Shown: positions 21,265 through 44,081 of the stretch, piece by piece
Layout of the letters: every line of letters begins with the position of its first letter
Position numbering within the stretch: position 1 is the first letter of the stretch
Assembly: GCA_025041175.1 (NCBI GenBank)
Contig: JAKCFJ010000002.1
Location: forward strand, 744,001-808,000
From: Halobacteriales archaeon YIM A00010
GTDB lineage: Archaea; Halobacteriota; Halobacteria; Halobacteriales; Haloarculaceae
Length of the DNA: 64,000 nucleotides
Reading direction: 5' to 3'
Program-made: the position numbers and the translations under genes
The notes under the pieces: generated by a model
Databases searched by the model: none
Seen by the model: the letters and a program-made list of their open reading frames with translations, nothing else
Told to the model about the DNA's origin: nothing

Positions 21265-21470
21265 TAGGGACTGTTGTGATTCCTTTTCGCTGTGGCGACA
21301 CAGAACGGTTCGTGAAACCCCCGAGCCGTCGTCATACTGTCGGACAGAGATAGTTGAATATCGGCTGCTGGTGACCGCTAGACAGCAACTGGATATTCCG
21401 TCTCAGTCCGTACGTGACTCTGTCCGACAGTATCACTCAACGACCGTGCCGCTACTCACAACAGTCACTA
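21265..21470. repeat. Family C inverted-repeat element carrying a nested family A element
   Basis: Outer element with ends TAGGGACTGTTGTG / CACAACAGTCACTA, flanked by TCA on both sides (21262-21264 and 21471-21473). Without the nested insert it aligns over its whole length with the family C copy inside pabB (41138-41245). Its middle is interrupted by a family A element plus duplicated TCA. Confidence 0.85.
21335..21432. repeat. Family A element nested inside the family C element
   Basis: 98 bp bounded by TACTGTCGGACAGAG / CTCTGTCCGACAGTA-type ends and flanked by TCA direct repeats (21332-21334, 21433-21435). The uninterrupted family C copy in pabB shows a single TCA at the matching place, which identifies the duplication and the insertion order: IS first, then C, then A. 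Confidence 0.85.
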
Positions 21471-40517: not shown

Positions 40518-42131
40518 ATGAGCGGAACAACGGTCGTCACAAAGAAGGAATCGTTCGTCGAGACCGCAGCGTCGGCGCCGCCCAGCGCTCGGATTCCGGT
40601 CGAGATACGCATCACCGTTTCGGACCCGTTCGAGGCGTACCGCCGCGCCCGTGAGCGCGACAGCGACGGATTCTACCTCGAGACCACCGGCGGACAGACC
40701 GGGTGGGGCTACTTCGGCGTCGAGCCGATCGAACGTCTGCAGGTGAATGCGGATGCGACGCCACGCGGTGCTGGCAGTCCCAGTATCGAGACCATCGACT
40801 CGTTGTTGGACCGCGAACAGCTCGTTCGCGGGGACTGTGATGTCCCCTTCCCCTGTGGCGCGTTCGGGTGGCTGTCGTACGACATTGCGCGGGAATTGGA
40901 AGACCTGCCAGCGACAACGATTCCCGATGGACTCCCTCGCCTCCAGCTCGGGGTGTTCGACTGCGTCGCTGCCTGGAAGGAGCCACGCGACGGTGACGTA
41001 CAGGTTCACGTGACCGCGTGTCCGATCGTCGGAGAGTCGGCGGTAGCGGCTTACGAAGAGGGACGAACGAACGCGACAACACTCGCCGAGGCGGCGCTGT
41101 ACGGGGACAGACGCATCCAGTCGTCCCCGATCGCTCATAGGGACTGTTGTGATTCCGTCCCGCTGTGGCGAAACAGAACGGTTCGTGAAACCCCAGAGCA
41201 GTCGTCAGTCAACGACCGTGCCGAAAATACGCACAACAGTCCCTATCAGGCGACGTTCGAGAGCGAGTGTGGCGAGACGGCGTTCGCTAACCGGGTACGG
41301 ACCATCAAACAGTACATCCGGGACGGCGATACGTTCCAGACGAACGTCTCACACAGGCTCGTGGCGCCTGCGGCGGTCCATCCAGTCGAGATCTTCGCCG
41401 CAGTGCGGCGGGTGAACCCATCACCATACTCCGGTCTGCTAGAATTTCCGGGCATCGACCTCGTCAGCGCTAGCCCGGAACTACTGCTGGACGTCGAAGG
41501 GAACCGGCTGCTCACCGAACCAATCGCCGGCACACGGCCGCGGGGCGACACGCCCGAAGAGGACGCGGAGCTGGAGCGTGCTCTCCGCACCGACACCAAA
41601 GAGCGCGCCGAACACGCGATGCTCGTTGACCTGGAGCGCAACGACCTGGGCAAGGTGAGCGAGTACGGGACTGTCAACGTCGCGGAGTACCGCCGCGTCG
41701 ATCGTTATTCGGAGGTGATGCACCTCGTCTCGCTCATTGAAGGACGGCTGTGCGATGACGTGAGCGTCGCCGACGCTGTCGCGGCCGTGTTCCCAGGGGG
41801 CACCATCACCGGCGCTCCAAAGCCCCGGACGATGGAGATAATCGACGAGGAGGAGAGGACTCGCCGCGGGCCGTACACCGGAAGTATCGGCGTTTTCGGG
41901 TTCGACGACCGGGCCACGCTGAATATCACCATCCGGACGCTGGTCCGCCACGAGGATGAGTACCGACTACGCGTCGGCAGCGGCGTAGTCCACGATTCGG
42001 TGCCCGAAACGGAGTACCAGGAGACACTGGACAAGGCACAGGCGCTTGTGACGGCTCTCGACGAGGCGCTGGGCGAGCAGGGGTCGTTCGCCGTCGGAAC
42101 CAGTACCGACCCGATGGAGGGGATCCGGTGA
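40518..42131 (+). CDS. pabB: Aminodeoxychorismate synthase component I with an in-frame MITE
   Basis: Converts chorismate and ammonia to 4-amino-4-deoxychorismate for p-aminobenzoate and folate synthesis. 537 residues from the ATG at 40518 (a longer frame begins at 40323). N-terminal Anth_synt_I_N part (about 20-200) and the chorismate-binding domain (about 250-520) with [56 protein letters not shown] and [12 protein letters not shown]. Residues 207-243 are encoded by a family C element lying in the linker between the domains, with no stop and no frame change. Assignment to PabB rather than TrpE rests on the folate neighbours. It overlaps pabA by 4 bp (GTGA). Confidence 0.88.
41138..41245. 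repeat. Family C element inserted in frame within pabB
   Basis: 108 bp with ends TAGGGACTGTTGTG / CACAACAGTCCCTA, flanked by TCA on both sides (41135-41137, 41246-41248). Element plus one TCA is 111 bp, that is 37 codons. Removing it joins GCT-CA to G-GCG-ACG and gives a continuous pabB reading. Same family as the element at 21265-21470. Confidence 0.9.
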
Positions 42132-42694
42132 TACTTATCATCGACAACTACGACTCGTTCGCGTACAACCTCGTCCAGTACGTCGGCGAGTTCGACGATG
42201 TCACGGTCCGGCGCAACGACGAGATAGACGTGGCTGGCATTCGGGACCTAGATCCGGACGGCATCGTTGTCTCTCCCGGCCCGGGGGTGCCTGCTGACTC
42301 TGGCGTTTCGGTCGATATCTTCGCCGAGACGGGGTATCCCGCTCTCGGTGTCTGTCTGGGTCACCAGGCATTGTGTGCGGCACACGGCGCGCCAGTCGAA
42401 TACGCTCCCGAAGTGATCCACGGAAAGCCGTCCGAGGTTCGCCACGACGGGTCCGACCTGTACGACGGTATCGACAATCCATTCGAGGTCGGCCGGTATC
42501 ACTCGCTGGCCATCGATGATCTGCCAACCGAACTGGTCAGGACGGCCCACACCGACGACGAACAGGGTGTCGTGATGGGAGTCCGGCACGTCGAACGACC
42601 TCACGTCGGCGTGCAGTTTCACCCCGAGAGCATCCTCACTGAGGCCGGGAAGCGCATCGTGGAGAACTTCTGTTCGTCCATCGCCAGAGCCTGA
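42128..42694 (+). CDS. pabA: Aminodeoxychorismate synthase glutamine amidotransferase subunit
   Basis: Supplies ammonia to PabB from glutamine. 188 residues, class I amidotransferase: [15 protein letters not shown] at the start, [11 protein letters not shown], the nucleophile Cys in [10 protein letters not shown], and the His-Glu pair in [13 protein letters not shown]. Starts with GTG overlapping the pabB stop. Its TGA stop codon (42692-42694) is at the same time the left flanking repeat of a family B element. Close relatives (TrpG) look the same; the context favours PabA. Confidence 0.9.
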
Positions 42695-42799
42695 TACTGT
42701 CGGTCATGGTCCGTCGAACACTCGGTTGCCCGTTCACCACGCGTCCCATCGCCGCGACACAGACCACCGGTCGACGTCATGTAATTATGACCGACAGTA
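42695..42799. repeat. Family B element at the pabA stop codon
   Basis: 105 bp with TACTGTCGGTCAT / ATGACCGACAGTA ends. The flanks are TGA (42692-42694, the stop of pabA) and TGA (42800-42802). The insertion used the stop codon as target and left it intact. Confidence 0.9.
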
Positions 42800-42802
42800 T
42801 GA

Positions 42803-43176: not shown

Positions 43177-43815
43177 ATGGGTTCACAGGACCAGCAAGCT
43201 GACTACCAGTACGGCACCGAGGCAGTGACTGGCCCACCGTTCGGTTTCGACGAACAGAAAGCACAAGAGGGGGCGCGACTGCTACTCGAAGCGGTTGGAC
43301 GCAACCCCAACGAAGCCAGTGTCTACGAGACCTGGAACCGGCGCGTGCCAGCGATGCTGGAGACGCTCACCGAGGGGATGCGGCCCGAGGCGAAGCCGGC
43401 GATGCGCACCTTCGACACCGAGACCAGCGGCTTGGTCGTCAAGACGGGGATTCCGCTCCACAGCATGTGTGAACACCACATGCTCCCCTTCCAGGGCGTC
43501 GCCCACGTCGCGTATCATCCCGGGGAGTCGATGGTCGGTCTCTCGAAGATCGTTCGCTACGTCCGGTGGCAGGCACGCTGCCTGACCACGCAGGAGGAAC
43601 TGACGCGTGACATTGCAGCAGGTCTGGACGACGAATTGGACGCCGAAGGAGTGCTCGTCGAACTCACCGCGACGCACGCGTGCGAGGCAATGCGCGGCGT
43701 CGAGACGGCGTCGACGACTACAACGCGGGAGAGTGTCGGCGAGGTCTCTGACACCGACCGCGAGCAGTTCAGGGGGTCGATCCGGCAGGACGGAGCCGGC
43801 GCTATCGGCTACTGA
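43177..43815 (+). CDS. folE: GTP cyclohydrolase I (FolE, type IA)
   Basis: First step of pterin synthesis, GTP to 7,8-dihydroneopterin triphosphate and formate. 212 residues with the type IA zinc and active-site motif LHSMCEHHMLPFQGVAHVAY, VGLSKIVRYVRW, CLTTQEELTRDIA, and the third zinc ligand region ATHACEAMRGVE. An extra about 30-residue acidic tail follows. Many archaea use the unrelated MptA for this step, so the bacterial-type enzyme here is notable. Its TGA stop (43813-43815) is the flanking repeat of a family A element. Confidence 0.93.
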   Translation: MGSQDQQADYQYGTEAVTGPPFGFDEQKAQEGARLLLEAVGRNPNEASVYETWNRRVPAMLETLTEGMRPEAKPAMRTFDTETSGLVVKTGIPLHSMCEHHMLPFQGVAHVAYHPGESMVGLSKIVRYVRWQARCLTTQEELTRDIAAGLDDELDAEGVLVELTATHACEAMRGVETASTTTTRESVGEVSDTDREQFRGSIRQDGAGAIGY

Positions 43816-43910
43816 CACTGTCGGACAGGGGTGATCGCGCCTCGGCTGCTGGTGACCCGCCGGACAGCAGTTGGCTAGGCCGTCGCACGCCGTCCGCAGA
43901 TTCGACAGTA
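43816..43910. repeat. Family A element at the folE stop codon
   Basis: 95 bp, ends CACTGTCGGAC (one mismatch to the consensus) / TCGACAGTA, flanked by TGA on both sides (43813-43815 is the folE stop; 43911-43913). Orientation is opposite to the copies at 18548 and 63324. Confidence 0.88.
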
Positions 43911-44081
43911 TGACCCCTGCCGACTGCTGGGCAGCCTTACCGCGATCGAAGCGTGCTCTTCCGGGAGCAACTCATCCGTATAAACACCGTCATATGTACT
44001 CATGAATTCTTTTGGATCGTATCGTCGGATGGTATGTAGGATGAACCTGATGAACAACGGCACTGACCGGGGGCAGATAGC

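Follow-up and report, generated by a model that had tools for sequence, protein, structure and literature searches.

The pabB-type gene studied here contains a segment that comes from a mobile repeat and is read in frame, and the locus raises the question of how this segment came to be translated and whether the protein makes use of it. The segment is a young copy of a mobile family, bounded by a target-site duplication (TSD), which has kept the reading frame at a site that is empty in relatives, in a genome with an intact pabB paralogue. With a probability of about 0.9, we consider that a non-autonomous MITE that duplicates a TSA target recently entered the pabB linker, with the frame kept by the length of the element and by chance, and that the added peptide is likely functionless.

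Structure of the insertion in pabB

The analysed window is a 64-kb stretch (C2:744001–808000) of a 5.97-Mb haloarchaeal genome in seven contigs, and its pabB is carried by the second-largest contig. The gene reads without a stop across 40518–42131, insert included, and matches the Pfam families Chorismate_bind (1.3e-86) and Anth_synt_I_N (2.5e-7). The element at 41138–41245 has perfect 14-bp inverted termini, TAGGGACTGTTGTG at its start and the exact reverse complement at its end. Together with one TSD it accounts for 37 in-frame codons (207–243) in the inter-domain linker, between the Pfam N domain (residues 35–148) and the chorismate-binding domain (residues 254–506). The earlier note had described an in-frame mobile-element insert between the two domains of PabB, and both its nature (108 bp between TCA and TCA, 37 codons, no stop) and its position are borne out. 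The gene is followed by pabA and then by a folE-like gene (43177–43815). An antisense open frame of 143 codons (41246–41677, minus strand) has a terminal TGA that is the TCA target in pabB, probably a coincidence in GC-rich DNA.

Table 1. Coordinates of pabB, its insertion and related elements (window positions)
Feature	Position	Strand	Remarks
Second family C copy in the window	21265–21470	+	Family B MITE nested (about 21335–21432)
pabB-type gene (aminodeoxychorismate synthase component I)	40518–42131	+	537 codons including insert
Left TSD, TCA	41135–41137	.	Direct sequence; TSD pattern in 39 copies
108-bp MITE (family C) within pabB	41138–41245	+	2 differences from consensus, both common to other copies
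Left terminal inverted repeat (TIR), TAGGGACTGTTGTG	41138–41151	+	
Right TIR of family C element	41232–41245	-	
Right TSD, TCA	41246–41248	.	Direct sequence
pabA-type glutamine amidotransferase	42128–42694	+	Overlaps pabB end; Pfam GATase 2.3e-49
Family B MITE	42695–42799	+	Left TSD 42692–42694 is the pabA TGA stop; 42692–42802 with TSDs
Family B MITE	43816–43910	+	Left TSD 43813–43815 is the TGA stop of the folE-like gene; 43813–43913 with TSDs

Two families of MITEs

The element belongs to a repeat family, termed C, of about 46 copies genome-wide, of which 29 are about 108 bp long and 17 measure 206–319 bp (overall range 104–319 bp). Clean TSDs of 3 bp flank 39 copies and are TCA or TGA (TSA) in 38 of these. 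The family thus has the features of a MITE: it is short and multicopy, with a 14-bp TIR, a 3-bp TSD and no transposase gene inside. The sequence TSATAGGGACTGT occurs with at most one mismatch at 87 sites genome-wide, compared with 7 for the reversed control, and the repeat is therefore far beyond chance. The copy at 21265, which had been cited earlier as the mark of a mobile repeat, is confirmed; a second MITE nested within this copy brings its length to 206 bp. Five copies (L011, L012, L016, L021 and L025) have unmatched TSDs; their flanks are of shared types (GATCGAATCAATG and GTAACGGCTT), as though these copies lay inside a different repeat.

A second family, B, is represented by 351 termini across the genome, against none with the reversed control, and duplicates the TSA target like family C, from which it differs in sequence. 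Most of the 17 long family C copies have a family B MITE nested in them, mostly at one internal TCA (21265–21470; loci L030 and L062–L077) and at other positions in loci L078 and L079. The nesting suggests that composite family C and B elements were amplified as units.

A genome pattern search found no autonomous element with family C termini, and no matching TIRs were present at the 30 loci of PF01609, the only transposase family scanned. The family C element was also absent from the plasmids searched, and a scan of 59 related genomes turned up no full copy, with one weak 38-bp match in G005.

The empty site and the age of the insertion

In-silico removal of 111 bp (the element and one TSD) leaves a 500-codon frame without stops. 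The nearest orthologues, which are 79–85% identical to pabB around the insert, contain 501–502 codons and lack the insert; those of G010, G030 and G012 align at residues 2–208 and 243–537, with almost nothing between. The insert is absent from all 38 other rows of the haloarchaeal pabB locus alignment, which includes a few duplicated records and, as one row, the paralogue on the largest contig, C1. The comparison with related haloarchaeal PabB sequences proposed in the earlier note therefore found the empty site in every homologue aligned. Its claim that excision restores pabB also agrees with the alignment to the PabB family TIGR01824, which is continuous over residues 114–473 after excision and covers only 238–510 when the insert is present. 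After excision, the linker lacks two residues relative to the nearest orthologues; this is a small lineage-specific difference, which the TSD model does not explain.

The pabB copy is the closest of all to the family consensus, with 2 differences in 108 positions, none of them private, and the dS of pabB to its nearest orthologue is about 0.9. The insertion is therefore recent relative to the divergence of the gene. In the explanation that we prefer, a 108-bp MITE would have been moved in trans by a transposase whose 3-bp target, TSA, is duplicated on insertion, and would have inserted only recently into the inter-domain linker.

Fold and function of the interrupted PabB

The AlphaFold model of the window PabB has the PabB/TrpE fold (pTM 0.84) and matches B. 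subtilis PabB (7qu9/7pi1). Residues 206–242, between helix 175–195 and strand 244–249, have a pLDDT of about 28, which is partly trivial because no other alignment row covers the insert; the rest of the model is confident. The insert is thus predicted to form a disordered loop in the linker. All columns that are invariant in a 36-row alignment are kept, and the dN/dS to the nearest orthologue (0.09) is typical of the family. The best NCBIfam family, TIGR01824, gives 388 bits, just short of the curated cut-off of 408.6; the score is 397 bits without the insert, 400 for the nearest orthologue and 422, above the cut-off, for the C1 paralogue. Fold, conserved residues and the neighbouring pabA are those expected of PabB. 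Since neither the window PabB nor its nearest orthologue quite reaches the TIGR01824 cut-off, PabB activity of this second pabB group, whose members are often on plasmids, is putative.

The C1 paralogue is part of a complete pabC-pabA-pabB cluster (C1:200689–204134), in which pabC was assigned from its sequence rather than by family search. A third pabB copy (L082, C4:752301–755750) contains a stop and a frameshift and adjoins a pabA-like sequence.

These copies bear on the strongest alternative, namely that the insertion has already inactivated PabB, but so recently that the gene has had no time to decay and merely looks intact. This is a real possibility, although we would not bet on it. An element without private mutations leaves little time for decay, and both the redundant cluster on C1 and the broken copy on C4 show that such a loss can be tolerated; the insert, however, lies outside both Pfam domains, the remainder of the fold is predicted to be normal and the invariant columns are retained. 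It is plausible that PabB tolerates the insert. The insertion may have persisted because the linker accommodates a disordered loop, because the other pab cluster supplies the function, or for both reasons.

Siting of the MITEs at stop codons

The pabB site is an exception for family C, whose usual home is non-coding DNA, often at an exact TGA stop. In reconstructed empty sites, the TSD coincides exactly with the TGA stop of a coding-like ORF for 18 of the 46 family C insertions, compared with 6.8% of nearby non-coding TSA sites (binomial P 4e-11, where genes were called by a simple codon-usage score and insertions are treated as independent, as in the P-value below). Ten of these 18 genes were checked, and all ten encode Pfam domains. 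Family B, sampled independently and from C1 only, has 13 of 28 non-coding insertions on stop codons versus 5.7% (P 1e-9). For both families pooled, 30 of 71 clean insertions are at distance 0 from a stop, against an expectation of about 5%, or 11% when weighted by the context of intergenic insertions; 8 others are within 40 bp.

Could this pattern reflect survivorship only, with selection removing insertions elsewhere? Coding insertions of family C are strongly depleted, and an insertion on a TGA stop is harmless because the 3-bp TSD regenerates the stop. Positions just downstream of a stop should be equally harmless, yet sites a few bases past it are not equally used, and a real target preference is therefore favoured over harmlessness alone; we regard pure survivorship as unlikely. 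We lean, by a small measure, towards a transposition system that prefers TGA stops, with two MITE families sharing the habit and the pabB insertion a rare miss that was turned into part of a protein. A limited search of the open-access literature did not find such safe-harbour siting at stop codons described. If the transposase chooses stops, rather than the MITEs merely surviving there, this would be a safe-harbour strategy of more importance than the pabB case itself and, if true, stop-targeting MITEs could mark the 3' ends of genes genome-wide.

Meaning of the open frame

An insertion of this length is frame-neutral, because 108 + 3 = 111 is divisible by three. Of the 29 short copies, intergenic ones included, 26 have no stop in frame F1 of the element and 25 have none in F2, and roughly one insertion in three should therefore read through. 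In these two frames, nonsynonymous substitutions between copies outnumber synonymous ones by about 3:1. In the preferred explanation, the pabB frame would have survived through the multiple-of-three length and the two stop-free frames out of six (a chance of about 1 in 3). An internal in-frame insertion is found in only one of the 46 family C copies, that in pabB; no further case was found among these and 33 family B copies, the closest being insertions that precede a likely start codon or fall near the C-terminus.

The earlier note had suggested that the protein perhaps uses the added segment. Use of the 37 residues (in regulation, interaction or salt adaptation) would fit an in-frame, stop-free insert in a linker, but seems very improbable to us. 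The open frame is generic to family C and is thus no evidence that pabB uses the peptide, which is absent from orthologues and too young for visible selection; the gene is moreover redundant with a second, intact pab cluster. The peptide is most likely without function. A native, lineage-specific linker expansion that merely resembles the repeat can be dismissed: linker length does differ by a few residues among other Halobacteriales, but the repeat family, with 95–96% identity over 108 bp between the pabB element and copies elsewhere in the genome, and the exact TIRs and TSD rule it out.

Comparison with known systems

Nearly half of the Rickettsia palindromic elements lie in ORFs, each encoding a conserved peptide (review PMC10969869). 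The pabB element is similarly short, palindromic and mobile, and is read in frame as part of a metabolic gene; in contrast, family C is internal and in frame in one of 46 copies, and no selection on the peptide is seen. The enterobacterial RU-1, RU-2 and RU-3 elements (Delihas 2007, PMC2759123) are likewise MITE-like (about 100–170 bp), mostly intergenic and occasionally translated, but belong to another lineage, and the abstract of that paper mentions no siting at stops. SMR-A of Haloquadratum walsbyi (PMC3119063) resembles family C in length (about 110 bp), prominent inverted termini, copy number (up to 54) and an unknown mobilising enzyme; the Haloquadratum SMRs, however, duplicate no target and use IS605/PATE palindromes as target, whereas family C has a 3-bp TSA duplication and favours stops. 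MITEAba12 (PMC6382973) is also a short MITE (113 bp) that inserts in genes, but has the 9-bp TSD of its known parent IS, and each of its six frames contains two or more stops. The pabB case, with its empty site, TSD and relative age, is a clean example of an archaeal enzyme that has gained a peptide from a MITE. It is thus a further example of the known in-frame translation of mobile repeats, and it is the stop-codon habit that sets family C apart.
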